Positions 22,221-42,537 of a stretch of 44,971 nucleotides of DNA are shown here, piece by piece. Positions within the stretch are counted from its first letter, which is position 1; each line of letters starts with the position of its first letter. Both the position numbers and the translations under genes were made by a program. This stretch comes from Burkholderiaceae bacterium. GTDB lineage: Bacteria > Pseudomonadota > Gammaproteobacteria > Burkholderiales > Burkholderiaceae_B. The stretch is taken from NCBI GenBank assembly GCA_020851995.1, contig JADZBO010000212.1, positions 1 through 44,971 on the forward strand. Reading direction: 5' to 3'. The notes under the pieces are model-generated. The model searched no databases and was not told the DNA's origin. It saw only the letters and a program-made list of their open reading frames with translations.

Positions 22221-23826
22221 AAATCCGGACGCCTCGCTCAACCCGGCGATCAGCGAGGATCAATCCACACCGCCTGAATCGGAAGGTCGTGTCAACCGGG
22301 AAGCACTCGACATCACGCGCGGGGTCGCTGCAGCAGCCGAAACCGGACCGATTCGCCGCTCTCTGCTCGGCGAAATTCTCGACTGGATGCTTGCGCCGCT
22401 CTTTCTGCTGTGGCCCATGAGCGTCGCCATCACCTACGTGGTCGCTCAGAATATTGCCAATACCCCCTACGACCATGCCCTCGCCAACGCGCTGAAGGTG
22501 CTTGGCCAGCAGGTCGAACTCGACAACGGGCGTTTCGTGCTGCGTCTTTCGGCGCCAGCGCGGCTGGCACTGCGCACGCGGGAAAACGACGGGGTGTTCT
22601 GGAAAGCGGTTGCCCCGGACCACGAATACCTTGGCGGCGACTCCGAATTGCCCACGCCCCAGCGTACGTCCATCCACCAATCGAATACGGTTTACTACCG
22701 CGACGAGGCGACGCGCGACTTCGAAATCCGTGTCGCCTACATGTGGCTTGACACCGGTGTGCGTGGCTACGGGGAGGTGTTGCTGGTCGCCGCCGAAACC
22801 CTCGAGCGACGCAAGCAACTGGCCAACGACATCATCAAGGGCGTGATCATTCCGCAGTTCTTCGTGCTGCCGATCGCCGTACTGCTCGTGTGGTTCGGAC
22901 TATCGCGGGGCATCGCGCCAATCAACAAGCTGCAGCAGCGATTGCGCGCCCGACGCCCTGACGACCTCTCACCAATCGACGAACACGCTGCGCCAACCGA
23001 GATCGGCCCGCTGGTGGCCGCCATGAACGATCTGCTCAACCGCCTTTCGTCCAACGTCCTCACACAGCGACGGTTTGTGGCCGACGCCGCGCATCAGCTC
23101 AAGACCCCGCTCGCGGGACTGCGCACACAGGCTGAACTCGCCCTGCGGGAAGCCCCTGGCGGCGAAATCGAGTCGGGGCTGCAGCAAATCGTATCCAGCA
23201 CGGCTCGTCTGACAAGACTCGTCAACCAATTGTTGCAAATGGCCAACGCCGAAAATCCCGCCAACGTCGGGATGGTTCCCTGCGATCTGGTCGCGCTCGC
23301 GCGCGAACGAGCGCAGCACTGGGTGGATCAGGCACTGCCAATGGGCATCGACCTCGGCTTTGAGGGGCCGGACGATCCGCTGACAATCCGAGGCCAGCCT
23401 CTGCTGCTTGCAGAAGTACTCAACAATCTCATCGATAACGCACTGCGATACACCCCGGCGCCAGGCCGCGTCACTGTCATCGTCAGCGAAACTGCGGATT
23501 ACGCGATTCTTGCCGTGGAAGATTCGGGCCCCGGCATCGCCCCGGAGGAGCGTGAGCGGGTTTTTGATCGGTTTTACCGGGTGCTGGGCACGCGTGTCGA
23601 AGGCAGTGGCCTCGGCCTGGCGATCGTCAAGGAGATCGCAACGCGACACCGGGCCACAGTCCAGATCTTCTATGCCGGGCGCAGTGACCTGCCTGGTTCA
23701 GGCTCAGGTTCAGGCTCAGGTTCAGGTTCAGGCTCAGGTTCAGGCTTAGGTTCAGGCTCAGGGTCAGGGTCAGGTTCAGGGTCGGGGTCGGGCACCCGAA
23801 TCGAGTTACGGTTTCCACGTCATTAA
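22198..23826 (+). CDS. Sensor histidine kinase, TctE-like, with Gly-Ser repeat insertion
   Basis: Membrane sensor kinase, about 542 residues. A variable N-terminal tail is followed by the first transmembrane helix (LDWMLAPLFLLWPMSVAITYVV). A periplasmic 2CSK_N-type sensor domain follows, then a second helix (VIIPQFFVLPIAVLLVWFGL) and a HAMP region. The H-box is FVADAAHQLKTPLAG with His about 299, and the ATPase domain has N-box NNLIDNALRY, G1 VEDSGPGIAP and G2 GSGLGLAIVKEI. Sixteen Gly-Ser (one Gly-Leu) dipeptides interrupt the domain just before its last strand TRIELRF. The start is uncertain: GTG 22198, TTG 22183 or TTG 22171, all overlapping the regulator gene. TctE homologues sense tricarboxylates; the ligand here is unknown. 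Confidence 0.88.
   Translation: MAHLRIAENPDASLNPAISEDQSTPPESEGRVNREALDITRGVAAAAETGPIRRSLLGEILDWMLAPLFLLWPMSVAITYVVAQNIANTPYDHALANALKVLGQQVELDNGRFVLRLSAPARLALRTRENDGVFWKAVAPDHEYLGGDSELPTPQRTSIHQSNTVYYRDEATRDFEIRVAYMWLDTGVRGYGEVLLVAAETLERRKQLANDIIKGVIIPQFFVLPIAVLLVWFGLSRGIAPINKLQQRLRARRPDDLSPIDEHAAPTEIGPLVAAMNDLLNRLSSNVLTQRRFVADAAHQLKTPLAGLRTQAELALREAPGGEIESGLQQIVSSTARLTRLVNQLLQMANAENPANVGMVPCDLVALARERAQHWVDQALPMGIDLGFEGPDDPLTIRGQPLLLAEVLNNLIDNALRYTPAPGRVTVIVSETADYAILAVEDSGPGIAPEERERVFDRFYRVLGTRVEGSGLGLAIVKEIATRHRATVQIFYAGRSDLPGSGSGSGSGSGSGSGSGLGSGSGSGSGSGSGSGTRIELRFPRH
23695..23790. repeat. Sixteen hexamers coding a (Gly-Ser)n run in the kinase
   Basis: GGTTCA, GGCTCA, GGGTCA, GGGTCG and one GGCTTA hexamers follow each other without interruption. 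They encode Gly-Ser sixteen times with one Leu, inside the histidine kinase ATPase domain. Synonymous third positions alternate, which indicates expansion by duplication of 12- and 18-bp blocks. Confidence 0.95.
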
Positions 23827-23969: not shown

Positions 23970-24084
23970 CATTGCGTCAGACACCCGTCAGCGAGTCGAT
24001 CCATGATTCGCCCCAGTCCGGTGATGAAAATCTCCGGCGAAAATCACCATAACGATTGTGCACATCAATCGAAGGAGACTATCC

Positions 24085-25755
24085 ATGAGCACAGCAACTG
24101 CGGGCAAGGTTCACCCAGCCCCGCGCCCGATGTCAAAAGAAGAGCGAAAAGTTATTTTCGCCTCGTCATTGGGCACGGTATTCGAGTGGTACGACTTTTA
24201 CCTGTATGGTTCGCTCGCGGCGATCATCGCGTCGCACTTTTTCTCTGGCGTGAACCCGACTGCTGCGTTCATTTTCGCGTTGATGGCGTTCGCTGCCGGC
24301 TTCGCGGTTCGTCCGTTCGGCGCGCTCGTGTTTGGCCGTCTCGGCGATCTGGTCGGACGTAAGCACACCTTCCTGATCACCATCGTGATCATGGGCCTTT
24401 CGACCTTCCTGGTCGGCGTGCTGCCCAGCTATGACTCGATTGGCATGGCCGCCCCGACCATCCTGATCATTTTGCGCCTGCTGCAAGGTCTGGCGCTTGG
24501 CGGCGAGTACGGCGGCGCGGCGACCTACGTGGCCGAACACGCGCCGCACGGCAAGCGCGGCGCCTACACCAGCTGGATTCAGACCACGGCAACGCTGGGT
24601 CTGTTCCTGTCGTTGCTGGTGATTCTGGGTGTGCGTACCGGCATCGGCGAAGAAGCATTCAAAGCCTGGGGCTGGCGCATTCCGTTCCTGGTTTCGGTGG
24701 TATTGCTGGGTGTTTCGGTGTGGATCCGTCTGCAGCTGAACGAATCGCCCGCCTTCAAACGCATGAAGGAAGAAGGCAAAACTTCCAAGGCACCGATCAA
24801 GGAGTCGTTCGGCGAATGGGGCAACCTGAAGATCGTGCTGCTGGCGCTCTTCGGCCTGACGGCTGGCCAGGCTGTGGTCTGGTACACGGGTCAGTTCTAC
24901 GCACTCTTCTTCCTGACGCAAACGCTGAAGGTTGACGCCAACACCGCCAACATCCTGATCGCGATTGCGCTGCTGATCGGCACACCGTTCTTCGTGTTGT
25001 TCGGAACGCTGTCTGACAAAGTTGGCCGCAAGGTCATCATCATGGGCGGCTGCCTGATTGCTGCGCTGACCTACTTCCCGGTGTTCAAGGCCATCACCCA
25101 CTACGCCAACCCGGCGCTTGAAGCAGCGCAGGCTTCGGCACCAGTCGTCGTGATTGCGGATCCGGCCAAGTGCTCGTTCCAGTTCAACCCGGTCGGTACC
25201 TCGGCGTTCACCAGCTCCTGCGACGTGGTGAAATCGTTCATGGCCCGCAACTCGGTAAACTACAAGAACGAAGCGGCACCCGCCGGCGCAGTGGCCAAGG
25301 TCAAGATTGGCAATCAGGAATTCACTTCCTTTGAGGGTACCGGTATGCCCTCAGCCGACTTTGCCAAAAAGAGCGCAGCGCTCAACAAGCAGTTGACCGA
25401 GGCGATCCGCGCGAGCGGCTATCCCGCTGCAGCCGATCCCGCGAAGATAAACTCGTTCATGGTCGTGGTCCTGCTCGTCTACCTGGTTATCCTGGTGACG
25501 ATGGTGTACGGCCCGATCGCGGCGATGCTGGTCGAGATGTTCCCGACCAAAATCCGTTACACCTCAATGAGTCTTCCTTACCATATTGGCAACGGATGGT
25601 TCGGTGGCTTCCTGCCAACGGTTTCGTTCGCAGTGGTTGCGGCAACCGGTAATATCTATGACGGACTCTGGTATCCGATTATCATCGCAGTTATGACGCT
25701 GGTGATCGGCACGCTGTTCGTCAAGGAAACCAAAGACGTGGACATTCACGACTAA
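24085..25755 (+). CDS. MHS-family MFS transporter (metabolite:H+ symporter) with periplasmic insert
   Basis: Twelve-helix major facilitator of the metabolite:H+ symporter family, 556 residues, longer than the usual 430-460. The N-terminus SSLGTVFEWYDFYLYGSLAA is diagnostic, followed by FGRLGDLVGRKHT (loop 2-3) and LQGLALGGEYGGAATYVAEH. The repeat of the loop motif, GTLSDKVGRK, comes before helix 9. Between helices 9 and 10 an insertion of about 115 residues with two cysteines should lie in the periplasm. ATG 24085 has GAAGGAG eight bases upstream. Substrate is not predictable; relatives carry proline/betaine, citrate, ketoglutarate or shikimate. Its position after a TctE-like kinase suggests a carboxylate. 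Confidence 0.88.
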   Translation: MSTATAGKVHPAPRPMSKEERKVIFASSLGTVFEWYDFYLYGSLAAIIASHFFSGVNPTAAFIFALMAFAAGFAVRPFGALVFGRLGDLVGRKHTFLITIVIMGLSTFLVGVLPSYDSIGMAAPTILIILRLLQGLALGGEYGGAATYVAEHAPHGKRGAYTSWIQTTATLGLFLSLLVILGVRTGIGEEAFKAWGWRIPFLVSVVLLGVSVWIRLQLNESPAFKRMKEEGKTSKAPIKESFGEWGNLKIVLLALFGLTAGQAVVWYTGQFYALFFLTQTLKVDANTANILIAIALLIGTPFFVLFGTLSDKVGRKVIIMGGCLIAALTYFPVFKAITHYANPALEAAQASAPVVVIADPAKCSFQFNPVGTSAFTSSCDVVKSFMARNSVNYKNEAAPAGAVAKVKIGNQEFTSFEGTGMPSADFAKKSAALNKQLTEAIRASGYPAAADPAKINSFMVVVLLVYLVILVTMVYGPIAAMLVEMFPTKIRYTSMSLPYHIGNGWFGGFLPTVSFAVVAATGNIYDGLWYPIIIAVMTLVIGTLFVKETKDVDIHD

Positions 25756-25803
25756 AGATACGATCCCCCGCCGGGTGGGACTGCTGCGCCCAACCGGCTT
25801 TTT

Positions 25804-25833
25804 GCCCCACCCGTTCGGGTGGGGCTTTTTTTT
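25804..25833 (+). terminator. Strong intrinsic terminator after the symporter gene
   Basis: GCCCCACCC (25804-25812), loop GTTC, GGGTGGGGC (25817-25825) and eight T residues (25826-25833) form a textbook plus-strand terminator. It closes the transcript 49 bases after the stop at 25755. Confidence 0.95.
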
Positions 25834-25850
25834 GGGATGAACAGAGTGCC

Positions 25851-26273
25851 CTACTTCGACGCCTTCAACCGGCGACGCAGCACGCGCAGCATCGCGCCAA
25901 GCAAAGGTACGTGTTCATAGACTTCGCGGGCCGCATCCCAGTAGTCGCGATGCAGAGCAATACGCCCGGACGCATCAAGCCTGAAGTGCGTACAACCTGC
26001 GATGCTGTAGGGTGTCGAGGCGCGGCGAAAATTGAACGACCAGGTCATGAACGCCTGCTCGGCCTCGACCACGATGGTGTTGACGACAAATCCAGGCGAG
26101 TCCAGCGACGCAAACATGTGCGCGTAGATGTGGCGCACCGACTCCACGCCAATCACATCGTTGAAGGGATCCGTAAACCTGACGTCTGCCGCATAAATAT
26201 CGCCGATTGAATCGAGCATCCCGGGCCGCAGGCTTTCGAACCAGCGCGCGATTTCTTCGTAGCGTTCCCGCAT
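25851..26273 (-). CDS. NTF2-like/SnoaL-like protein, last gene of the lipid operon
   Basis: 140-residue cone-shaped NTF2-fold protein. Typical elements are RYEEIARWFESLRPG at the start, IYAADVRFTDPFNDVIGVESV with conserved aromatic and acidic residues, and GCTHFRLDASGRIALHRDYWDAAREVYEHVP near the C-terminus. The fold serves as an isomerase, hydrolase or ligand pocket, and no catalytic assignment is possible. ATG 26273 has AGGA at good spacing. The frame continues upstream to 26324 but that part is encoded by an 8-bp repeat and is probably not translated. It follows the SDR gene by 182 bases and belongs to the conserved lipid-modification gene set in other proteobacteria. Confidence 0.78.
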   Translation of the reverse strand: MRERYEEIARWFESLRPGMLDSIGDIYAADVRFTDPFNDVIGVESVRHIYAHMFASLDSPGFVVNTIVVEAEQAFMTWSFNFRRASTPYSIAGCTHFRLDASGRIALHRDYWDAAREVYEHVPLLGAMLRVLRRRLKASK

Positions 26274-26295
26274 GCGATTGTCCTGTAGAAATTCA

Positions 26296-26391
26296 GCCAC
26301 TCTGCCACTCTGCCACTCTGCCACTCAGCAATTCAACAATTCAACAATTCCGCAATTTCGCAATTCAACAATTCCGCAATTCAACAATTCA
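26296..26391. repeat. Twelve 8-bp units in the leader of the NTF2-like gene
   Basis: Four copies of GCCACTCT (the last ending in A) are followed without a break in phase by eight units of the form GCAATTCA/ACAATTCA/ACAATTCC. All twelve keep an exact 8-bp period. The array lies between the SDR gene and the NTF2-like gene, 23 bases before the latter's start. Confidence 0.95.
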
Positions 26392-26455
26392 ACCGCTGAG
26401 GGGCGCAAGTCGGCGAATGCAAAGCAGCAACCAACCTTCAGCTTGCGCATGCACC

Positions 26456-27259
26456 TCACATTCCCGTGGCTTTGTGCAGCAGCCAGAAGCGCAGCCGCTC
26501 GGGCAAACGGCTCACCCACTTGACTGCGCCAGCAAAACCGCGCGGAAACCGGATTTCGAAACGCCCTCGCTCGAGTCCCTCGATGATGTGCGCAGCCGCC
26601 TGAGGCGGCGTCAATAATCCGGGCATCGGAAAGTCGTTGACCGACGACATCGGCGTCGCGACAAAACCGGGACTGATCAGGTAGACGCTTAAACCCCTGG
26701 GCTCAAGCTCGAAATACAAGGATTCGGCGAGATTGCGCAAGGCCGCCTTGGTGGCACCATAAATCATGGCGCGCGGCAGGCCCGTGTAGGCGGCAATGCT
26801 GCCCACCAGAGCAATGCCGCCGTGCCCCTGCGCGAGCAGGTGGGGCACGACGAGAGCGAGCGCGCGGTAAACACTGACCACGTTGAGGTCAAAGCTCGCC
26901 TCGACCTTGGCGATGTCGAAATCCCATGAGTGCGCCGGCTCGTAGCGAGCGGCCCCCAGCACCACGAGATCAATGCCGCCAAGGCCCGCTACAACCCGCT
27001 CAAACGCGCTCGGCCATGCAGCCGGATCCGTGGCGTCGAAATCGACTGCCAGCGCGGCTTTTCGCCCGGCGACCACCTGCTCGAGGGCGTCCAGACGACG
27101 CGCCGACACGGCGACATGCGCTCCAGCGTCAAGCAACGCCTGAGCCAGCGCCGCGCCAATCCCGCTCGATGCCCCGACAATCCAGACCCGACGTCCCGCC
27201 CAGTCAGCAATCGCCGGATTCAACCGCCCGGTCAGTGCGCTCCTCAACCCACACGTCAT
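26456..27259 (-). CDS. Short-chain dehydrogenase/reductase (SDR)
   Basis: Classical SDR oxidoreductase, 267 residues. The cofactor loop is VWIVGASSGIGAAL (about 25-38). The stretch LGAARYEPA replaces the usual NNAG, the catalytic Ser is in ALVGSIAAYTG, and the YGATK motif gives Tyr and Lys. ISPGFVATPM follows. The Ala in place of Asn in NNAG is a family variant. The start overlaps the DUF3833 stop (ATGA), so it is translationally coupled inside the operon. In related clusters an SDR accompanies the cyclopropane synthase-like and FAD enzymes; a keto/hydroxy lipid intermediate is a plausible substrate but unproven. Confidence 0.85.
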   Translation of the reverse strand: MTCGLRSALTGRLNPAIADWAGRRVWIVGASSGIGAALAQALLDAGAHVAVSARRLDALEQVVAGRKAALAVDFDATDPAAWPSAFERVVAGLGGIDLVVLGAARYEPAHSWDFDIAKVEASFDLNVVSVYRALALVVPHLLAQGHGGIALVGSIAAYTGLPRAMIYGATKAALRNLAESLYFELEPRGLSVYLISPGFVATPMSSVNDFPMPGLLTPPQAAAHIIEGLERGRFEIRFPRGFAGAVKWVSRLPERLRFWLLHKATGM

Positions 27260-27804
27260 TTGGCCTCACCTGATCCACGCTTGCGGAAAAACAAGGTGAC
27301 CTCGCCAAGGTCGATTCCAAACTTCGACATCGTCGAGCGGTTCATCATCGCCTGATCATCCATCTGCCACATCCAGTCGTCGAAGGTCACCTCGTACTCT
27401 TTGCCATCCACTGGCAAACGCAGCACATACCTCCAGTGCAACGCGTTGCCGGCCACTGTGCCAATCGCGACACCCACCACGTCATCAGCGGTACCCTGCC
27501 AGGTGCCGTCGGCCTGACGGCGCAGGGTCCAGACGCGACGCTGCGTTTCGCCGTCCGAGTAGGTGAACCGCTCGTCGAGCGTGCCCGTGTTCCGGTCGGA
27601 CCAGCTCGCTTCGATCACGACATGAAAGCGCCTTGCCACTTCGCCGCTGCGCTTCTGGAACAGACCCCAGGCATCGATGGTGCCGTCAAAATACGTCGGC
27701 AAATCCAGCGTGGGCTTCTCGTTGGCATAACGTGCGACATCGACGCCCGAGCAGGATGTCAGCAACGCGGCCATTGAGGCAGCGAACCAGGTTTTGATTC
27801 TCAC
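27256..27804 (-). CDS. DUF3833 family putative lipoprotein
   Basis: 182-residue protein of the DUF3833 family. GTG 27804 is chosen because AGGAG lies just upstream and the product then begins with a lipoprotein signal, MRIKTWFAASMAALLTSCSG, with a lipobox ending in Cys18. The mature part has the family marks YFDGTIDAWGLFQKRSGEVARRF, DERFTYSDGE and DDWMWQMDD, and is predicted beta-rich. The function is unknown; the fold is thought to bind hydrophobic ligands. Both ends overlap its neighbours (GTGA with the transporter, ATGA with the SDR). Likely anchored to the periplasmic face of a membrane, fitting a role in handling modified lipids. Confidence 0.82.
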   Translation of the reverse strand: MRIKTWFAASMAALLTSCSGVDVARYANEKPTLDLPTYFDGTIDAWGLFQKRSGEVARRFHVVIEASWSDRNTGTLDERFTYSDGETQRRVWTLRRQADGTWQGTADDVVGVAIGTVAGNALHWRYVLRLPVDGKEYEVTFDDWMWQMDDQAMMNRSTMSKFGIDLGEVTLFFRKRGSGEAK

Positions 27805-29078
27805 GGAAGGCTCCTGGTGCGCGACGCAGCGCACGATAAAGTCAGCGGTCGGCGCAGCGACCACAAGGCGACGGCCGCGGCAACCTTCAGCGCAACCGGC
27901 AGAAAACTATAGACCACCGTCAGTGGGTCGGAGGTTGTCGCGTCGCCGGGCTGATAACCCAGAAAGCGTACCAGCGGCAAGGCAAGCCCTGCAGCCAGCG
28001 CAAGCGACAATTTTCCGACCAGCGCCCAGAGGCCAAAATACAATCCGGTGCTCTTGCGGTGCGCCGGCCCGATTGCATCGGCCAGCATGGCGGGTGGCAA
28101 CGCCACATCGGCACCGAGCGCGGCGCCAGACAATAAACAGACGATCGCCCAGCGCGTCACGTCGCCGGGTTCGGTCCAGGCCGTCAAAAGCAGCGCGCAA
28201 GACGCAAGCAACGCGCCAGACAGCCACGCGCGCTCCTTGCCGATCCGATCCGATAAGGCCACCCAGCCCGGCAGTGCGATCATGCCCGCGAGGAAATACA
28301 GCCCGAGGAACAAGCCTGCATCCTCTTGCAGACCCAGCGCATCATCCATCACAAAGAGTACCAGCGTCGCGGGCACTGCCACCGAGGTCGCGTTGAACAG
28401 GTAAAACCACAACAGGCGCCGGATCGCGGTTGGCGCCAAGGCCTCGCGCCATCGCTCCAGAGCGCCGGCCGGCGCGGGCGAGGGTCTTGGCGCGCCCCAG
28501 AGCGTGACCAGCAACCCCACCGCGAGCACACCGACAAAGACCCAGGCGAACTGCCCGTATCCCGCACGAGGGCCAGAGTCCGACACCCAGGCCGCAGGCA
28601 GCACCGAGGCAAACACCACGCCGGCCAGGCCGAACGCTTCACGCCAGGCAGTGACGCGCGTACGGCCCGCGGGATCATCCGTCAGGCGCGCACCCCAGGT
28701 GAGGTAGCAGACGCTGACCAGGCTGTGCGCCGTATAGACAACCGCAAGCGACAACGCCAGCCACACCAGCAATCCACGCTCGCTCCACGCGGGCGGGTGA
28801 AACAACATGACGAATCCGCCCGACAGCGCGACCCCCGCCACCACCACCAGCGATGTCCAGCCCGACTTTCGGCGATGCAGGAAATCCACCAGTCGCCCGA
28901 TCAAAGGATCCTGCGCTGTATCCAACAGGCGGACGAGAAACAACACGGCGCCCAACGCCGCCAGATCGACCCCGAGTGAATCGCCGTAAAACTTGGGCGA
29001 AATCATGTAGATCGGCAGCATCGCCATCGCCAGCGGCAATCCCAGCGCTGCGTAGGCTGCAAGCCCGCGTCGTGTCAC
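27801..29078 (-). CDS. GPH-type MFS transporter of the lipid operon
   Basis: 425-residue membrane protein with about twelve hydrophobic helices. It starts LAAYAALGLPLAMAMLPIYM and carries the GPH/MFS loop signature VRLLDTAQDPLIGRLVDFLHRRKSG (about 48-72). ARLTDDPAGRTRVTAWREAFGLAG (about 128-151) is also typical. The family contains sodium or proton:glycoside symporters, but homologues in this gene set are more likely lipid or metabolite transporters. Its start overlaps the stop of the upstream chalcone isomerase-like gene and its stop overlaps the DUF3833 gene. The substrate is unknown. Confidence 0.82.
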   Translation of the reverse strand: MTRRGLAAYAALGLPLAMAMLPIYMISPKFYGDSLGVDLAALGAVLFLVRLLDTAQDPLIGRLVDFLHRRKSGWTSLVVVAGVALSGGFVMLFHPPAWSERGLLVWLALSLAVVYTAHSLVSVCYLTWGARLTDDPAGRTRVTAWREAFGLAGVVFASVLPAAWVSDSGPRAGYGQFAWVFVGVLAVGLLVTLWGAPRPSPAPAGALERWREALAPTAIRRLLWFYLFNATSVAVPATLVLFVMDDALGLQEDAGLFLGLYFLAGMIALPGWVALSDRIGKERAWLSGALLASCALLLTAWTEPGDVTRWAIVCLLSGAALGADVALPPAMLADAIGPAHRKSTGLYFGLWALVGKLSLALAAGLALPLVRFLGYQPGDATTSDPLTVVYSFLPVALKVAAAVALWSLRRPLTLSCAASRTRSLP

Positions 29079-29590
29079 GGCGTCTTCCCCAGTAACGCGA
29101 CGCGCAGTGCGGGTTCACTGGTGCGCGGATCAAGCCAGATACCGAAAAAGTATTGAGCAAGCTCCTCGTCCATGCGGCCAGTCGGCGTCTCATCCAGATA
29201 GAAAGTCGCGCCCTGGCCTGGCACATAAACCCCTGCCAGGCTTTGACCCTTGCTGACATCGCGCAGAACCGCCTCAAGCGCAGCTCGCCACTGTGGACGT
29301 TCGGCAATCGGTGCACCGAGACGCGCCATCTGGTCGATCGAGGCGTCAACGATGCGCGATCGCGCGATGTCAAACTCGTACGTCAGCGACAGCGCGAAAG
29401 GCTTGCCCGGCGTATAGACGCCACCGGGTGCCCACAGGCGCGCCGTGTAGACAGACCAGCCAAGCCGCTTGAATACGCCTTCACCAACCCGTTGTGCCTG
29501 AGGGATAGGTGCAAGCCACGCCTGCGAGGTCGCACCGGCCGGTGACAGCAGGCAAAGCGCGATCAGCGCCGAAGCTAGGATTGTGCGCAT
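29075..29590 (-). CDS. Exported chalcone isomerase-like protein (second copy)
   Basis: 171 residues with a clear signal peptide (MRTILASALIALCLLSPAGA), so the protein is periplasmic. The mature part is a chalcone isomerase-like domain: RVGEGVFKRLGWSVYTARLW, FALSLTYEFDIARSRIVDASIDQMARLGAP and GIWLDPRTSEPALRVALLG. It is clearly paralogous to the first gene of the operon (32904-33473). Bacterial members have no shown isomerase activity; the fold can bind fatty acids, as in plant FAP proteins. ATG 29590 overlaps the methyltransferase stop by 16 bases. GTG 29599 is an alternative start. Confidence 0.8.
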   Translation of the reverse strand: MRTILASALIALCLLSPAGATSQAWLAPIPQAQRVGEGVFKRLGWSVYTARLWAPGGVYTPGKPFALSLTYEFDIARSRIVDASIDQMARLGAPIAERPQWRAALEAVLRDVSKGQSLAGVYVPGQGATFYLDETPTGRMDEELAQYFFGIWLDPRTSEPALRVALLGKTP

Positions 29591-30792
29591 AGTGTCCACT
29601 GTTTAACGTCGATGCGTTGCTCGCGAAACCCCGCCTCGCAGTAGGCGAGATACATGCGCCAGATCCGAATGAACCGCTCGTCGAAGCCCTGTGCGCGCAC
29701 GGTGTCGAGATTGCGCTCAAAAGCCTGCGACCAGCGGTGCATGGTTTCGGCGTAGTCGATTCCCATCGACTGGGTTGTGAGACAGCGCAACCCCGCCTGT
29801 TGGCATTCGGACTGGAACCGGGTCGGGCTCGGCAGCATTCCACCCGGAAAGATGTACTGCTGAATGAAATCTGTGCCATCGCGATAGGCATCGAAATGCG
29901 CATCGCCAATATCGATCGATTGCACGACGATACGTCCGCCCGGGCGCAGGCAGCGTGCCAGCATACGGAAGTATCCAGACCAGTGCAGCAACCCGACCGC
30001 CTCGAACATTTCAATCGACACGATATGGTCAAACTGACCGGTGACATCCCGGTAATCCTGCAGCCGCAATGTCACCTGATCCGACAGCCCTGCATCGGCA
30101 ATGCGACGCAGGCCCCAGGCAAGCTGCGCATCCGACAGCGTGATCCCGACGACATTCAATCCGCGCCATGCCGCGCGTTCGGCAAAGCCAGCCCAACCGC
30201 AACCCACCTCCAGAATGGTCTGGCCGGCAGTCGCGCCCAGTTCGTCGAGTATCCGGTCGTACTTTGCGTTCTGAGCCGTTTCGAGATCCCGGGTGTAGTC
30301 GCCTTCGAACCACGCCGCGGAATACGACATCGTCGGATCGAGCCAGAGGCTGTAGAACGCATTGCCCAGATCGTAGTGGCTAAGAATATTGCGCCGGCTT
30401 CCGCGGCGACTGTTGTCGCGCAGCACCCAATGCGTGAACCGGCGTGCCAGCAAAGCCCACCAGCGCCCGTCAACCACCTGAGTCACACCCTCATTGCGCA
30501 GGGCCACGGTGAACAGCGCCAGCATGTCCGGGGTCTCCACCCAGCCGCGTTCCAGGCATTCGGCGAACCCGATATCGCCACGTCGCAGGATCATTCCCGC
30601 GGCGCGCCAGTCGTTGATCCTCAGAGTGGCATGCGGTTGTTGCCCCGCCCGACCCAGGTGCAGCGCGATGCCAGCCGGATCAATCAACATGAGCGACCCA
30701 TGTTCGAGGCGATCAAGCACAGTGAGAAACATGCGCGCGACCCACGGCAAGCCGCTGGACCAGGCAATCAGGCGATACTCGTTCAAACTCAT
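29575..30792 (-). CDS. Cyclopropane-fatty-acid-synthase-like SAM methyltransferase
   Basis: 405 residues, full length for the CFA synthase family, acting on phospholipid acyl chains at the membrane surface. The N-terminal domain is followed by the family block HYDLGNAFYSLWLDPTMSYS (139-158), the SAM-binding EVGCGWAG (195-202) and IVSIEMFEAVG with the conserved catalytic Glu. FIQQYIFPGGMLPS and the C-terminal RIWRMYLAYCEAGF complete the pattern. It could add a methylene to make cyclopropane rings or a methyl group as in methylated or furan fatty acids; sequence alone does not decide. Its start overlaps the DUF1365 stop by 4 bases. Confidence 0.88.
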   Translation of the reverse strand: MSLNEYRLIAWSSGLPWVARMFLTVLDRLEHGSLMLIDPAGIALHLGRAGQQPHATLRINDWRAAGMILRRGDIGFAECLERGWVETPDMLALFTVALRNEGVTQVVDGRWWALLARRFTHWVLRDNSRRGSRRNILSHYDLGNAFYSLWLDPTMSYSAAWFEGDYTRDLETAQNAKYDRILDELGATAGQTILEVGCGWAGFAERAAWRGLNVVGITLSDAQLAWGLRRIADAGLSDQVTLRLQDYRDVTGQFDHIVSIEMFEAVGLLHWSGYFRMLARCLRPGGRIVVQSIDIGDAHFDAYRDGTDFIQQYIFPGGMLPSPTRFQSECQQAGLRCLTTQSMGIDYAETMHRWSQAFERNLDTVRAQGFDERFIRIWRMYLAYCEAGFREQRIDVKQWTLCAQS

Positions 30793-31592
30793 AGGGGAAC
30801 CTTCGCGTTAGAAGACACTTCATCCTTGGACTGCGGGGGAATCGGGTGATAGGCAGCGCCCTTGCGCCAAAGACGCAAGGCCTGCAAGTGGATGCGCACG
30901 ATCACGCCCAGGGTCATGAGCGGTGCACGCACCAGTTCGCGCAACAAAAGCCGGGTCGACAACGCGGCCGACTGCACTACGATCGCCGTGCGCAACAGCG
31001 CCACCGGTTCGTCCACGGGGTCAAAATAGTCAATCGAAACGCGCTGCGACTGCGCGCGCGTGTCGAGTTGAAATTCGTACCGGCCACTCACCGCGCAAAA
31101 CGGAGAGACGTGAAACTCCTTCGCGCAGCTGAGCGCGACCCCGTCGACAATCGGCCCGCCGTCGGGGGAGCGAAGCACGTACTGGTGTCGCTGGCCAAAG
31201 GTGTTGTTGACTTCCGCCACCAGAACGCGCAATTGTCCCTGCGCATCATGCAGAAACCAGAAGCTGACGGGATTGAACACATACCCGAAAATCCGCGGAA
31301 AACACTGAAGCCAGACGGCACCCTCAGGCATTGAAAGCCCGGCAGATTCCACCGTGCCCCGCAGCCAGGTCATCAGGTCGCTGCCATCGCGCGCACCGTG
31401 GTCGGCCGACATGAAACTGACCGGTCTCCGGCGATTGACGCCAAACAACGCGCTGTTAAAAGCACCAAGCAGTTCAGGTTCGTCGACGCGCAGGCGCAAA
31501 CAAAACACCCGGTACACGAACCGGTGGACAAACGGTCTCAGGCGCGCATGCGCGACGCGACCGGCACATAACTGGATGGCCGCTTCAGTCAT
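30789..31592 (-). CDS. DUF1365 protein
   Basis: 267 residues, DUF1365 family, recognised by PRIFGYVFNPVSFWFLHD, AEVNNTFGQRHQYVL and AKEFHVSPFCAVSGRYEF. The family is almost always next to a CFA synthase-like gene and an FAD oxidoreductase, and its biochemical role is unknown. The conserved Asn, His and Phe residues suggest a catalytic or lipid-binding part. No signal peptide is present. The start overlaps the FAD oxidoreductase end by 8 bases and the stop overlaps the methyltransferase start by 4. Confidence 0.88.
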   Translation of the reverse strand: MTEAAIQLCAGRVAHARLRPFVHRFVYRVFCLRLRVDEPELLGAFNSALFGVNRRRPVSFMSADHGARDGSDLMTWLRGTVESAGLSMPEGAVWLQCFPRIFGYVFNPVSFWFLHDAQGQLRVLVAEVNNTFGQRHQYVLRSPDGGPIVDGVALSCAKEFHVSPFCAVSGRYEFQLDTRAQSQRVSIDYFDPVDEPVALLRTAIVVQSAALSTRLLLRELVRAPLMTLGVIVRIHLQALRLWRKGAAYHPIPPQSKDEVSSNAKVPL

Positions 31593-32907
31593 AGACGGCC
31601 TGCCATGGCGGCATGACGCCCATCACGCGCAACATGCGCAGCGATGACTTGAGCCCGTCCTCATGAAACCCATAGCCACCCCAGGCACCGCAGAACCAAG
31701 CGCGGTTGCCGCCCTGAATCGTCGGTATCAAGGGCTGCGCAGCGGTCGCTTCGGTGTCAAGCACGGGATGTTCGTAGCTGAACCGCCCGATGACGCTTGA
31801 CCGATGTGGCGCCCGATACGGGTTCAGCGTCAAAACGAGCGGGGTGCGAAATGGCAAATCCTGCAACTGATTCAGCAGGTAACTGACCGACACCGGACGA
31901 TGACGCCCGACGGCGGTCGGGGACATGTAATTCCAGGCGGCCCAGGTGTTTTCACGGCGGGGTAGCAAAGCCGCATCGGCGTGCAGAATCGCCAGGTTCT
32001 GCTGATACCGGAAGTGACTCAGGACGGCGGCTTCGCGCTCAGTGGCATCAAGAATCTTCAAGGTCGTAGGCGGATGGCAGGCCATCACGACGTGATCGAA
32101 ATTCTCGATACCGCTGCGCGAAGTCACCTCGACTCCGCCCTGCGTGCGGCGAACTTGAAAGACAGGACACGATCGGCGAGCATCCGGAATGGCGGCAATC
32201 ATGGTTTCCACGTACGAGCGGCTGCCACCTTGAACGGTCTTCCATTGCGGTCGGTTTTCGACCTGCAGCAGGCGATGGTTGATACAGAACGCCAGGAAGG
32301 TCTCGGCCGGAAAGCCCAGGATGGTCTCGAAGGATGCAGACCAGATCGCCGCTGCCATGGGTAGCAAATACCAGTCGCGCACCGGGGCACCAAAGCCCTC
32401 AGCGTCGAGCAACTCGCCAAGCGTGCGGGGATTCACGCGCGCCTGTTCAAGATAGACCGGGGCGTTGCGATTGAAACGCAGGATGTCGCGCAACATCCCC
32501 CAGAATGCGGGTCGCGCAAGGTTTCGGAACTGAGCGAATACTGTCGAAAGGCTGGTGCCGCACCACTCCACATCCGGCCGCTCGATTGAAACCGAAAAAG
32601 ACATCTCGCTTGCATAGACCTCGGTGCGCAGCGCAGCGAACAGCTTGACGAGGTTGGGGTAAGTAATCTCATTGAATACGAGAAACCCCGTATCGACCGG
32701 ATGCGTGACATTGCCGATCGTGACGTCGACCGTATTCGCATGCCCGCCGAAATACGCTGCGGATTCGAACAAAGTGACCCGATGATTTGGCGCCAGCAAC
32801 CAGGCCGCGGAAAGTCCGGCGATGCCGCCGCCGACGACCGCGATCCTGTCCCCGGGCCGCACAGGCGTCGCGTTCGCCTGTTGTGAGCCAAACGGCGCGT
32901 CGCTCAT
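31585..32907 (-). CDS. FAD-dependent oxidoreductase (amine-oxidase/desaturase-like) of the lipid operon
   Basis: 440-residue flavoprotein. After a 20-residue lead comes the dinucleotide-binding GGGIAGLSAAWLL (26-38), followed by LFESAAYFGGHANTVDV, the second FAD-contact region of the amine oxidase/phytoene desaturase superfamily. The C-terminus closes with FCGAWGGYGFHEDGLKSS, the final FAD-binding strand. In related clusters this enzyme accompanies the CFA synthase-like protein, and a role in desaturating or oxidising acyl chains has been proposed for such gene sets. It starts ATGA-overlapped with the first chalcone isomerase-like gene. Substrate unproven. Confidence 0.85.
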   Translation of the reverse strand: MSDAPFGSQQANATPVRPGDRIAVVGGGIAGLSAAWLLAPNHRVTLFESAAYFGGHANTVDVTIGNVTHPVDTGFLVFNEITYPNLVKLFAALRTEVYASEMSFSVSIERPDVEWCGTSLSTVFAQFRNLARPAFWGMLRDILRFNRNAPVYLEQARVNPRTLGELLDAEGFGAPVRDWYLLPMAAAIWSASFETILGFPAETFLAFCINHRLLQVENRPQWKTVQGGSRSYVETMIAAIPDARRSCPVFQVRRTQGGVEVTSRSGIENFDHVVMACHPPTTLKILDATEREAAVLSHFRYQQNLAILHADAALLPRRENTWAAWNYMSPTAVGRHRPVSVSYLLNQLQDLPFRTPLVLTLNPYRAPHRSSVIGRFSYEHPVLDTEATAAQPLIPTIQGGNRAWFCGAWGGYGFHEDGLKSSLRMLRVMGVMPPWQAVYD

Positions 32908-33473
32908 TGGTTGCCCTCCGCGCCGAGCAATTTCGCGCGCAATTCCGGACTGCGGGTCTGCGGATCCAGCCAGATTGCAGCAAACGCTTCGGCGAATTGC
33001 GGATCACGGATTTCACCGAGACGCCGCGAATCAAAATAAAAGACCACCGCGCCAAGAGGATCAAAGACTCCGACAAGACGGCTGCCGAGCGACACATCGG
33101 GCATCAGCGTCGCGAGCGATTCCTGCCAGCGCGTCAGCGTGTCGTTGTCTGGCGCACGCAAGCGCCGGATCTCGTCGATTGAGCGTTCGACGATCTGACC
33201 CGCCGGGATGCGCCTCAGATAACTCAAATCGAGGGCAAACGGACGGGTCGAGTCGAACTGGCCCCCCGGCACATGGAGCGAGGCGCGATAGATTCGAAAT
33301 ACGCTCCAGGTCAGCACGCCCGACCCGCAAACCGCCCAGTCGAGATCGAAGTCCGCGACGACGGCCGCCGGCAGGGAATCCGACGGCCCTTGGCGAAAGT
33401 CGAGCGCGCCCAGCCCGACGGCAATCGCGTCAGAGAGCTCAGAAACCTGTTGCGCACGACCTCTGAATTGCAT
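32904..33473 (-). CDS. Chalcone isomerase-like protein without signal peptide (first gene of the operon)
   Basis: 189 residues from ATG 33473, which has AGG at proper spacing. The frame is open to ATG 33533, but the likely -10 element and operator lie inside that stretch, so the longer start would precede the transcript. The core matches the second copy: SGVLTWSVFRIYRASLHVPG, FALDLSYLRRIPAGQIVERS and AIWLDPQTRSPELRAKLLG. No signal peptide is visible, in contrast to its paralogue, so it is probably cytoplasmic. The function is unknown; a fatty-acid or isoprenoid binding role is conceivable. First gene of a nine-gene minus-strand operon. Confidence 0.78.
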   Translation of the reverse strand: MQFRGRAQQVSELSDAIAVGLGALDFRQGPSDSLPAAVVADFDLDWAVCGSGVLTWSVFRIYRASLHVPGGQFDSTRPFALDLSYLRRIPAGQIVERSIDEIRRLRAPDNDTLTRWQESLATLMPDVSLGSRLVGVFDPLGAVVFYFDSRRLGEIRDPQFAEAFAAIWLDPQTRSPELRAKLLGAEGNQ

Positions 33474-33502
33474 GATTTGACCTGGTGGTATAAAAAGTGA
33501 CT

Positions 33503-33522
33503 GTTCAGTATAATACCTGAAC
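33503..33522. promoter_or_regulatory. Inverted repeat overlapping divergent -10 elements (candidate TetR operator)
   Basis: GTTCAG (33503-33508) and CTGAAC (33517-33522) are perfect inverted arms with an 8-base spacer. The spacer reads TATAAT on the plus strand (33509-33514), a consensus -10 for the tetR direction. Read on the minus strand it contains TATTAT (33515-33510), a -10 for the lipid operon with a leader of about 28 bases. No good -35 is present on either side. A regulator bound here would cover both promoters. Confidence 0.6.
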
Positions 33523-33574
33523 TGATTAGACATTAATCACGTCTCACCGTCAATACCAACGATTCAGCCTGAAT

Positions 33575-33783
33575 GACTCTGGCCACACTTGACGACTCCT
33601 GCCACACTCACTGACTCCTGCCGCACTCACTGACTCCTGCCGCACTTACTGAGCCCTGCCACACCTAACGACTCCTGCCACACCTAATGACTCCTGCCAC
33701 ACTTAACGACTCCTGCGACACTTAACGACTCCTGCCACACTTAACGACTCCTGCCACACCTAATGACTCCTGCCACGGCCAAG
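33575..33783. repeat. 19-bp tandem repeat array in the tetR leader
   Basis: Eleven consecutive 19-bp units, of which ten are well conserved, have the consensus GACTCCTGCCACACTTAAC, starting at 33575, 33594, 33613 and so on to 33765. Variation is limited mainly to the last five bases (CTCACT, CTTAAC, CCTAAT). The last unit is partial in similarity and overlaps the tetR start codon, which is made by the AATGACTCC junction. No internal dyad symmetry is seen. Confidence 0.95.
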
Positions 33784-34395
33784 AAGCTTTCTTTCAAGCA
33801 GCAACAACTCCGATTCCGCGAGGATGCGATCCTTGACGCAGTCAACCGTCTGCTGTCTCGCAAGGGCTTTGATCTGATGACGATGGACGAGGTCGCGGCC
33901 GAGGTCGGCATCTCCAAGGCAAGCCTCTACAAACACTTCGAATCCAAGGAAGAACTCGCCGCCGCGTCCATGACCCGCTTGCTTGAGCAGACGCTTGACC
34001 ATGCCCACAGCCTGGCCGCTGAACTTTCACCGCTCAAGCGCCTCAAGGCGGTGATGCGGTGGGCAGTGACCGCGCACCTGGATGGCGCGATGCCCTCGTT
34101 GCCATCCACGCGCTCCAACATCCAGCATGCGCTGATCGGTTACGCGCCCTATGCAGAGCGGGTCGGTCAACTCACGGAACTGCTCGGCGGCTGGATCCTG
34201 CAGGCGCAGGATACTGGCGACCTTTCACCCGATTTACCCGGCGAAGTCATTCTGTACACCATCTACGCCCGCTCCTGTGATCCGGTGTCAGACTTTCTCA
34301 AAACCGGAGGTGCCTTCACCGACGACGAAATTGTCGGTTACGTGGAGCGCACCTGCTTTAACGGGATCACAGGATCACCTGATCCAGTCGCCTGA
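33763..34395 (+). CDS. TetR/AcrR-family transcriptional regulator
   Basis: 210 residues. The N-terminal helix-turn-helix is plain: REDAILDAVNRLLSRKGFDL followed by TMDEVAAEVGISKASLYKHF (about 43-62) and ESKEEL. The remainder is an alpha-helical ligand-binding and dimerisation domain. It is divergent from the nine-gene lipid operon and is its probable repressor. The start ATG 33763 lies in the last 19-bp repeat unit and has no Shine-Dalgarno; no other start codon is available upstream of the DNA-binding domain in this frame. The ligand is unknown; a fatty acid or acyl-CoA would fit the operon. Confidence 0.85.
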   Translation: MTPATAKKLSFKQQQLRFREDAILDAVNRLLSRKGFDLMTMDEVAAEVGISKASLYKHFESKEELAAASMTRLLEQTLDHAHSLAAELSPLKRLKAVMRWAVTAHLDGAMPSLPSTRSNIQHALIGYAPYAERVGQLTELLGGWILQAQDTGDLSPDLPGEVILYTIYARSCDPVSDFLKTGGAFTDDEIVGYVERTCFNGITGSPDPVA

Positions 34396-34447
34396 GCATC
34401 GTCCTGCCGTCCTCGGCTAGAATCGGTCTCTTTGTCCCGGGCATCCC

Positions 34448-35362
34448 ATGTGGTTCAAGAATCTCAAACTGTTCCGTCTCACCAGTGACTGGAAGACCTC
34501 CGCCGAGCAACTCGACGGCCTGTTAGCGAAGGAAGCCTTTGTGTCCGCGGGTGCCGCGGCACCGATGTCCTCGGGCTGGGTCTCCCCGCGCGAAGGCGAC
34601 GTCCGCCTCGCCTACCCGGTCGGCCGTCAGATCCTGTGCGCCTTTCGCACCGAGAAAAAGCTGTTGCCGGCCTCCGTCATCAATCAGTTCGTCAAGGTGC
34701 GCGCCACGGAACTGGAAGACCAGCAGGGCTTCAAGCCGGGCCGCAAGCAAATGCGGGACCTCAAGGAAGAGGTCACCGAATCCCTTCTGCCCCGCGCTTT
34801 CAGCCTGCAACGCGACACGCGTCTGTGGATCGATCCTGTCAACCACTGGGTCGTCGTCGACACCGCCTCTGCCTCCAAGGTCGAGGAGGTCATCTCCGCG
34901 ATGGGTCGCTTGCTCCACCCCTTCCCCATGCTGCCGGTGCAGGTCAACATCAGCCCGGCCACCGCCATGACCGAATGGCTCCTCACCGGCGAGCCTCCCG
35001 TGAATTTCACGGTCGATCAGGATGCCGAACTGCGCGCGGGTGGCGACAAGGCCGCTGTGGTGCGCTATGTCAAGCACACGCTGGATATCGACGACATCAA
35101 AAAACACGTCCAGAGCGGTAAGCAGTGCACCCGCCTCGCGCTCACTTTCAATAACCGCGTGTCCCTGGTTCTGACCGAAAATCTCGACATCAAGCGTGTC
35201 GCTGCACTCGACATCCTCGACTCACCTGACTTGCAGGGTGCGGCAGACGCTGCCGAAAAATTCGACGGCGACATGACTTTGATGTGCGCCGAAATCAGCC
35301 AGTTGCTCGATGCCCTGATGGCCACGCTACAGGAAATCAGGGCTGACGCAACCAGGCCGTAA
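34448..35362 (+). CDS. rdgC: Recombination-associated protein RdgC
   Basis: Nucleoid-associated, ring-forming double-stranded DNA-binding protein that limits RecA activity. It has 304 residues, the normal length. It opens MWFKNLKLFRLTSDW and has AYPVGRQILCAFRTEKKLLPASVIN, the central SLLPRAFSLQRDTRLWIDP and the C-terminal KQCTRLALTFNNRVSLVLTE. It is monocistronic as far as can be seen, 52 bases after tetR. A TAGAAT that could be a -10 lies at 34419-34424. Functionally it fits the presence of recA-recX elsewhere in the window. Confidence 0.93.
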   Translation: MWFKNLKLFRLTSDWKTSAEQLDGLLAKEAFVSAGAAAPMSSGWVSPREGDVRLAYPVGRQILCAFRTEKKLLPASVINQFVKVRATELEDQQGFKPGRKQMRDLKEEVTESLLPRAFSLQRDTRLWIDPVNHWVVVDTASASKVEEVISAMGRLLHPFPMLPVQVNISPATAMTEWLLTGEPPVNFTVDQDAELRAGGDKAAVVRYVKHTLDIDDIKKHVQSGKQCTRLALTFNNRVSLVLTENLDIKRVAALDILDSPDLQGAADAAEKFDGDMTLMCAEISQLLDALMATLQEIRADATRP

Positions 35363-38217: not shown

Positions 38218-38300
38218 CAGGATTTCCTCAAAAGATCGAACTTAGCGCGCTTGGCGCCCTCTGCATGCGACAGCTTCCGCGGGTGCAGGCGCCGCGGTCG

Positions 38301-38367
38301 CAGTGAGCAGTGAGCAGTGAGCAGTGCGCGGTGAGCAGTGCGCGGTGAGCAGTGCGCGGTGAGCAGT
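38301..38367. repeat. Nine 7-bp tandem units upstream of the methyltransferase gene
   Basis: Units CAGTGAG, CAGTGCG and CGGTGAG succeed each other with an exact 7-bp period (three CAGTGAG, then CAGTGCG-CGGTGAG three times, then a partial unit). It lies between the dehydrogenase stop (38424) and the methyltransferase start (38217) on the minus strand. Confidence 0.92.
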
Positions 38368-42196: not shown

Positions 42197-42508
42197 ATGG
42201 TGAAAATGCATAATCCGCCGCATCCCGGACTCACTCTGCGCGATGATGTCCTGCCTGCGCTCGGGCTCAGTGTCACTCAGGCGGCGCTGCAACTTGGAAT
42301 TTCGCGTGTCGCCCTCTCTCGCGTGCTCAACGGACATGCGGGAATTTCTCCCGAAATGTCGCTTCGCCTCGAGGCATGGCTTGGCATTGAACGAGGTGGT
42401 TCAGCACAAGCGTGGTTGGCGCAGCAAAGCGCATACGATATCTGGCAGGCGCAACAGCGTTTCAAACAGCACCCGATGCGCGTTCATCCTGCGCCTTTGG
42501 CTGCATAG
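42197..42508 (+). CDS. higA: HigA-family antitoxin-like HTH protein without HigB
   Basis: 103-residue XRE-type helix-turn-helix protein of the HigA addiction-module group. It starts HNPPHPGLTLRDDVLPALGL, and the recognition part is LSVTQAALQLGISRVALSRVL followed by NGHAGISPEMSLRLEAW. QAWLAQQSAYDIWQAQQ near the C-terminus is the family hallmark. AGGAAGGAG precedes ATG 42197. Only about 100 bases separate it from trxC, so there is no room for the usual upstream higB toxin gene of about 90 codons, and none follows. It is either an orphan antitoxin or a regulator adopted from one. Confidence 0.85.
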   Translation: MVKMHNPPHPGLTLRDDVLPALGLSVTQAALQLGISRVALSRVLNGHAGISPEMSLRLEAWLGIERGGSAQAWLAQQSAYDIWQAQQRFKQHPMRVHPAPLAA

Positions 42509-42537
42509 CTGCATAGCTGCATAGCTGCATAGCTGCA
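42503..42537. repeat. 8-bp tandem repeat at the higA stop codon
   Basis: GCATAGCT is repeated four times with a further GCA. The TAG in the first unit is the higA stop, and the repeat continues into the sbp leader. The period is 8 bp. Confidence 0.9.

Follow-up and report, generated by a model that had tools for sequence, protein, structure and literature searches.

In the present study, we analyzed a nine-gene operon, putatively for furan fatty acid (FuFA) biosynthesis, together with the TetR-family regulator gene divergent from it, in a stretch of Burkholderiaceae DNA (contig C212, bases 1-44971) from a draft genome of 3.9 Mb and 97.4% completeness; this whole stretch of 44,971 bases is hereafter referred to as the window. 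Gene domains were assigned by Pfam cut-offs, and gene starts were re-judged by likely start codons. As summarized in Table 1, all nine open reading frames (ORFs) lie on the minus strand at 25851-33473 (33533 with the longest frame of the first gene), in the order that an earlier note, made from the sequence alone, had given: a chalcone isomerase-like protein (CHI1), a flavin adenine dinucleotide (FAD) oxidoreductase (UfaD-like), a DUF1365 protein (UfaO-like), a CMAS-family protein related to cyclopropane fatty acid (CFA) synthases (UfaM-like), a second chalcone isomerase-like protein (CHI2), a GPH/MFS_2 transporter, a DUF3833 protein, a short-chain dehydrogenase (SDR), and an NTF2-like SnoaL_2 protein. 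Every ORF exceeded its cut-off (DUF1365, 241.9 bits; CMAS, 280; MFS_2, 213.6; DUF3833, 237.5; adh_short, 137.4; SnoaL_2, 60.8; Amino_oxidase/NAD_binding_8 for the FAD oxidoreductase), the two Chalcone_3 matches by a narrow margin (32.6 and 30.7 bits against a cut-off of 27). With the likely starts, namely the second Met for CHI1 (33473), a GTG at 27804 for DUF3833 and an ATG at 29590 for CHI2, five of the eight junctions are 4-base stop/start overlaps, as had been noted for most of them, one overlaps by 8 bases and one by 16. The last junction (SDR/NTF2) is a gap of ~130-180 bases containing short tandem repeats, and is tight in the closest relative, L187. The later start of CHI1 was preferred because a stop codon in L187 closes the longer-start frame after 10 codons. 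The overlapping junctions suggest co-transcription of the nine genes.

Table 1. Positions of the operon genes, the divergent regulator and the adjoining elements within the window
Feature	Position	Strand	Basis or remark
CHI1, chalcone isomerase-like, without signal peptide by hydropathy	32904..33473	-	longest ORF from 33533
UfaD-like FAD oxidoreductase, proposed methyl-fatty-acyl desaturase	31585..32907	-	Pfam; best solved relative LkcE
UfaO-like DUF1365 protein, proposed O2-dependent furan-forming enzyme	30789..31592	-	Pfam
UfaM-like CFA-synthase-related methyltransferase, Gln at His266 position	29575..30792	-	Pfam, alignment
CHI2, chalcone isomerase-like, signal-peptide-like N-terminus	29075..29599	-	likely start 29590
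GPH/MFS_2 transporter	27801..29078	-	Pfam
DUF3833 protein, lipoprotein-like start	27256..27864	-	Pfam; likely start 27804; low-confidence calycin-like barrel model
Short-chain dehydrogenase (SDR)	26456..27259	-	Pfam adh_short
NTF2-like SnoaL_2 protein, last operon gene	25851..26324	-	Pfam
TetR-family regulator, divergent from the operon	33763..34395	+	TetR_N 58.1 bits
Proposed operator TACTGAACAGTC, kACTN4rGTm class	33499..33510	-	
Another, degenerate operator-like site TCTAATCAGTTC; lies 20 bp upstream of the main site and overlaps the -10 proposed here	33519..33530	-	
Proposed sigma-70-like promoter TTGACG-N17-TCTAAT	33525..33553	-	layout in 6/14 own-family sequences
Tandem array of a 19-bp unit (~10 copies) separating the operator from the TetR start, including the first TetR codons	33582..33776	.	
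Short tandem repeats at the SDR/NTF2 junction	26296..26393	.	
Terminator-like hairpin and T run, belonging to the convergent transporter gene at 24058-25755; downstream boundary	25804..25825	+	

The FAD oxidoreductase, DUF1365 and CFA-like genes are adjacent and stand in the order D-O-M, corresponding to ufaD-ufaO-ufaM. In published work, UfaM, UfaD and UfaO of Rhodobacter sphaeroides convert a cis-vaccenoyl chain to 9M5-FuFA, with UfaO being the DUF1365 protein and the furan oxygen coming from O2 (PMC7380195); RPA2571-2570-2569 (ufaD-ufaO-ufaM) of Rhodopseudomonas palustris suffices for FuFA formation in a triple mutant of R. sphaeroides (PMC7380195); and in Halomonas the three ufa genes are consecutive, ufaM yielding 11-methyloctadec-12-enoate in Escherichia coli (PMC12089945). 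Since the D-O-M core has this known FuFA order, a methylated FuFA is the likeliest product of the operon, rather than a new lipid. The proposal of one lipid-modification gene set akin to the singlet-oxygen set of Rhodobacter was upheld, and that of a chemically distinct lipid gave way to the known FuFA pathway, to which both the core order and the Gln signature described below point. By analogy with the three enzyme steps known for the homologues, the UfaM-like enzyme would methylate a cis-vaccenoyl chain in membrane phospholipid using S-adenosylmethionine, the UfaD-like flavoenzyme would introduce a further double bond, and the DUF1365 protein (UfaO-like) would insert the O2-derived oxygen and close the furan ring.

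A public-genome scan queried with the DUF1365 protein yielded five loci, four of which, L187 (81% identity in DUF1365) and L188, L189 and L190 (63-64%), belong to betaproteobacterial metagenome genomes; the fifth, L191, is distant (38%). L187 carries the TetR gene and all nine operon genes at 66-88% identity, and L188 does so at 47-74%; L190 has the TetR gene and eight genes before its contig stops, and the short contig of L189 holds the TetR gene, CHI1, UfaD, UfaO and part of UfaM. With nine genes kept in L187 and L188 and eight in L190, the gene series is therefore not a chance run of ORFs. The metagenome contig of L188 carries the label Bordetella parapertussis, which may be wrong. Among the 99 records of a plasmid search with DUF1365, none exceeded 60% identity. 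For the comparison of gene neighbourhoods across the order that the earlier note had proposed, 300 genomes were surveyed, and DUF1365 was found in 145 of them. The DUF1365 places of 144 other genomes gave 146 stretches, to which two around ChrR-like matches were added, and the loci were scored with profiles made from clusters of their own ORFs. The 148 loci with any profile match (window included) comprised 116 with the main-group D-O-M core, 27 with a second DUF1365 group, and 5 without a core.

In E. coli Cfa, bicarbonate is liganded by Glu239, His266 and Tyr317 (PMC11387697). The window protein has E, Q and Y at these positions; it retains the equivalents of Glu239 and Tyr317 and departs from the canonical triad of cyclopropane synthases by Gln at the His266 position. 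This Gln was found in all 145 M-group sequences of the loci of the order (window counted), and His was retained in 18/18 sequences of a second CFA-like (M2) group as well as in the other strong CMAS gene present in the window's own genome. The Gln may accordingly mark UfaM-type chemistry, in which methyl transfer is followed by proton loss from the chain and no ring is formed, and a signature of one residue may then separate UfaM-type methyltransferases from CFA synthases. For the M-group of L039-L186, it possibly argues against labelling the proteins CFA synthases. These features also bear on the alternative that the product is some other modified fatty acid, for example a 10-methyl branched or oxygenated one, made by a BfaAB-like methyltransferase/flavoenzyme pair, with DUF1365 in some other role. 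Such a pair of flavoprotein and CFA-like methyltransferase from Mycobacterium does give 10-methyl stearate in E. coli (PMC5660069), but DUF1365 sits between the two genes here as in R. palustris, the three genes stand together in Halomonas, and the same core recurs with the H266Q signature throughout the order; we thus regard this alternative as unlikely.

The model of the UfaO-like protein (predicted local distance difference test, pLDDT, 67) gave a weak nitrobindin-like match (E 8e-4; template modelling score, TM, 0.33 by query), and H15 was the sole His retained, in 144 of 146 sequences with two gaps. Given this weak fold match and the single kept His, no cofactor is proposed. The second DUF1365 group, at 27 loci (L041-L047, L053, L058, L065 and others), lies between UfaD-like and UfaM-like genes, accompanied by a fatty acid desaturase (18/27), a lipocalin (19/27) or a second CFA-like gene (15/27); these loci perhaps serve a different furan or branched acid.

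Regarding the remaining genes, CHI1 lacks a signal-peptide-like segment by hydropathy (window, L188, L189 and L190), CHI2 has one (window, L187, L188 and L190), and DUF3833 begins with a hydrophobic segment that precedes a Cys. The DUF3833 model was weak (pLDDT 60), its matches being mostly calycin/nitrobindin-like barrels with TM up to ~0.6. A lipid route from the cytoplasm through the transporter and periplasm to the lipoprotein is possible on these grounds; the CHI-like pair, GPH transporter, DUF3833 lipoprotein, SDR and NTF2-like protein would handle, move or recycle the modified lipid, with transport as a putative role. We take R. sphaeroides RSP1089-1087 to encode a transporter, a DUF3833-like protein and an SDR protein. 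Single deletions of RSP1087, 1088 and 1089 left the fatty acid profile without detectable change (PMC7380195), so the genes at those places are dispensable for synthesis in R. sphaeroides.

As to its regulation, the operon had been described as standing under a TetR-type instead of a sigma/ChrR switch. This held insofar as a TetR_N gene is divergent from the operon and ChrR (TIGR02451) gave no match in the 97.4% complete genome; what had been missed was the local norm. A MerR (LitR-like) regulator lay within 2.6 kb in 61 of the 116 core loci, divergent in 60 of the 61, and B12-binding domains were recognized by Pfam in one representative of this MerR group and in the corresponding gene of genome G376. 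Beside the window operon there is no MerR/B12-fold regulator, and the TetR gene stands there instead. TetR orthologues occurred at 25/116 core loci (window included), all divergent and 23 of them no more than 260 bp from the UfaD domain, and at none of the 116 were TetR and a LitR-like regulator found together within 2.6 kb. The surroundings differed as well: FolE2 was nearby at 28/61 LitR-like loci versus 0/25 TetR loci, glutathione peroxidase at 21/61 versus 2/25, and a photolyase-related protein at 18/61 versus 4/25.

Sigma/ChrR as the usual local state was not supported, since ChrR exceeded its cut-off in 2/300 genomes of the order against 145/300 for DUF1365; in one of the two, G204, an ECF-type sigma gene with sigma-70 region 2 and region 4 domains and ChrR are divergent from D-O-M, which makes a third arrangement. 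The remark that no extracytoplasmic function (ECF) sigma factor, ChrR or photolyase was in view agreed with the scans: no sigma factor was detected in the 27 window ORFs that were Pfam-scanned, nearly all from 15 kb on, the first 15 kb and the remaining genome lying outside the ECF sigma search, and no photolyase-family domain was found on the window contig, three being located on two other contigs of the same genome. A LitR-like query likewise gave no match in this genome, in a search without a built-in control. The sigmaE (ECF11) promoter pattern TGATC-N18-CGTAT was absent from window positions 25001-34500 on both strands; in its strict form it did not turn up in the ChrR locus L040 either, nor in any set searched, both ChrR loci included. 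A loose form was seen in 0/25 of the TetR regions, in 2/60 of the LitR-like ones, and at a few positions within the ChrR loci.

The linkage of TetR to the operon was pronounced at the family level. In a set of 151 genomes, with TetR counted at E <= 1e-20, TetR was present in 22 and DUF1365 in 47; all 22 were among the 47, with TetR divergent and within 2.3 kb of DUF1365 in 22/22, and the 104 genomes without DUF1365 had no TetR at this threshold (Fisher p 1e-13, kinship not corrected). The window's own genus is represented by seven genomes, all with DUF1365 and six with TetR. In the seventh, G376, the genes divergent from UfaD encode a MerR/B12-fold protein and a lipocalin; this MerR is 38.7% identical to that of G003, and a 2-kb search with the LitR-like query recovered its gene at E 6e-79. 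Within one genus, LitR thus replaces TetR at the same spot. Outside the own family, 24 TetR loci were distributed over 11 families. When the D, O and M proteins of 119 loci were concatenated for a tree, parsimony required 18 changes of the regulator label, compared with 49.5 in shuffles; the switches were therefore exchanged repeatedly, though not freely. A class-level search for TetR found it in 2/369 genomes, both of this order and one at an unrelated locus; the absence elsewhere is soft because no more than 8 candidates were scored in each genome.

Between TetR and the operon, a palindrome of the form kACTN4rGTm was found in the own-family intergenic regions (13/14) and then counted in those of other families (22/24), against shuffle means of 0.33 and 0.15, respectively (maximum for the latter, 2 in 200 shuffles). 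As the 22/24 count was not blind, these regions having been viewed beforehand, the stronger evidence comes from the controls: the palindrome occurred at 1/60 LitR-like loci, and ACT-AGT with spacers of 3, 5 or 6 gave 0-2 occurrences per set. It was also lacking between UfaD and MerR in G376. The sites are often paired ~20 bp apart, and the first covers the TetR start codon in many loci. Furthermore, TetR proteins with the recognition helix SKPSLYKH (SKP type) were paired with T..A outer bases in 17/17 cases, and those of the AKG type with A..T or G..C in 5/5. The TetR link is thus conserved and accompanied by an operator-like palindrome, which is more than the earlier note had claimed. A generic promoter scan of the divergent region called no promoter.

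From the sequences, a TetR dimer is predicted to bind these candidate sites (TACT-N4-AGTA palindromes, often paired 20 bp apart) and to repress both divergent promoters, until released by a ligand, for which a fatty-acyl product or a product of lipid oxidation would be the likeliest candidate. The first site over the TetR start fits autoregulation, and it could be argued that TetR is an autoregulator merely adjoining an operon whose expression is governed otherwise, for instance by a global regulator. We consider this quite unlikely: the sites are commonly paired and extend over the intergenic space between the two promoters, TetR and LitR-like regulators are mutually exclusive within 2.6 kb at the 116 core loci, and LitR-type regulators control the homologous genes in Pseudomonas (PMC9758184). 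A further alternative, that TetR is an activator or adds a level of control to that of a light-sensing regulator whose gene lies elsewhere, draws on the photolyase-related genes at four of the 25 TetR loci and on a photolyase nearby at three, through which a link to light stress remains. It appears very unlikely, since neither a LitR-like match (in the search without a built-in control) nor a ChrR match was obtained in the window's genome, and since the weaker site overlies the proposed -10, which suits repression.

Taken together, the observed gene content, order and conservation, the TetR linkage, the conserved palindrome and the LitR swap in G376 are well consistent with a FuFA operon under a local TetR-family repressor, which we regard as probable. 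Several observations weigh against it. With respect to the product, homology to the Rhodobacter and Rhodopseudomonas Ufa proteins is drawn from domains, gene order and the literature. With respect to the regulators, 30/116 core loci have neither regulator near; in 4 of these 30, less than 1.5 kb of sequence is available upstream of UfaD, and 10 have a MerR gene farther away. L140 has a LitR-like gene and a TetR-profile match ~5 kb apart, and ChrR-profile matches at E <= 0.001 occur in 88/300 genomes, 86 of them below the cut-off and many partial. The loci are related, and the TetR label changes 7 times against 25.4 in shuffles by parsimony, with the root and some nodes uncertain or weak. A TetR homologue in G049 (51% identity; L202 3085-3684) lies in an unrelated locus without an operator site, and the wider TetR family is therefore not tied to the FuFA module. 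With respect to the operator, the second site in the window, TCTAATCAGTTC, is degenerate; L187 has only weak sites and none of full strength, L199 has only one, with a changed half, and AKA-type helices show mixed site flanks. Finally, the 19-bp array sets TetR ~180-195 bp farther from the operator than in L187, the distance between the TetR and CHI1 starts being 289 bp in the window and ~107 bp in L187.

The 19-bp repeat was rejected as an operator array, as it contains no kACTN4rGTm and its unit is found only here in the genome: exact matches to a 14-base piece of the unit are confined to this site (5 places), and the array is absent from L187. It copies the first codons of TetR upstream and is possibly a variable-number locus between repressor and operator; its copy number may be misjudged in the draft assembly. 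Directly downstream of the TetR gene lies an RdgC gene (PF04381; 34448-35362), kept in L187, L188, L190 and L193-L201. The TetR homologue of G049 adjoins a LysR-like gene. Elsewhere on the contig, ~14 in-frame copies of the hexamer GGTTCA near the end of a histidine kinase gene (23695-23780) encode a Gly-Ser tail, which a change in copy number would lengthen or shorten, and further short tandem arrays lie at 2205-2244, 38299-38367 and 42500-42537.

In a broader perspective, the locus represents a known lipid module in a conserved variant of its regulation, and we found no description of the TetR switch, nor any paper joining furan fatty acids and TetR, in the literature searched, which covers few subscription journals. 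The FuFA module would thereby gain a third switch, of the ligand type, whose candidate operator is defined and extends over a dozen families of one order, and the exchange of TetR and LitR switches within a genus is testable. More tentatively, and as a possibility we would rather doubt than assert, FuFA synthesis in this one order may be governed by at least three interchangeable switches (ChrR/ECF, LitR and TetR), with TetR sensing a lipid (acyl product or oxidation product) so that the membrane antioxidant would be made on chemical demand rather than in response to light, and with the cytoplasmic and periplasmic CHI pair, the transporter and the DUF3833 lipoprotein carrying the acyl chain outward.

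Compared with the known systems, the window operon shares the equivalents of UfaD, UfaO and UfaM with the five-gene operon RSP1091-1087 and ufaM of R. sphaeroides (PMC7380195), but has ufaM within the operon and possesses, in addition, two CHI-like genes and one NTF2-like gene. FuFA genes are members of the core sigmaE/ChrR regulon (PMC6852236), whereas the genome of the window is without ChrR and has TetR as the neighbour of the operon. In Vibrio, the blue-light response is run by MerR and ChrR, and a CFA-like gene rises (PMC5241685). In Pseudomonas, LitR-type regulators (PplR/PmlR) govern a homologous light-induced locus, and the LitR regulon of P. putida and P. mendocina resembles the window in having an SDR, an FAD oxidoreductase and ufaM beside the regulator (PMC9758184), but with MerR/LitR and a photolyase in place of TetR and no photolyase beside the operon. 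Relative to E. coli Cfa and the CFA synthases, the UfaM-like protein is of the same CMAS family with the Glu239 and Tyr317 equivalents in common, and differs in the Gln for His266. The LitR-like loci of the same order (D-O-M-C-T-L-S-N) have the same enzyme and accessory families, and differ in the regulator and in the FolE2 gene near many of them.

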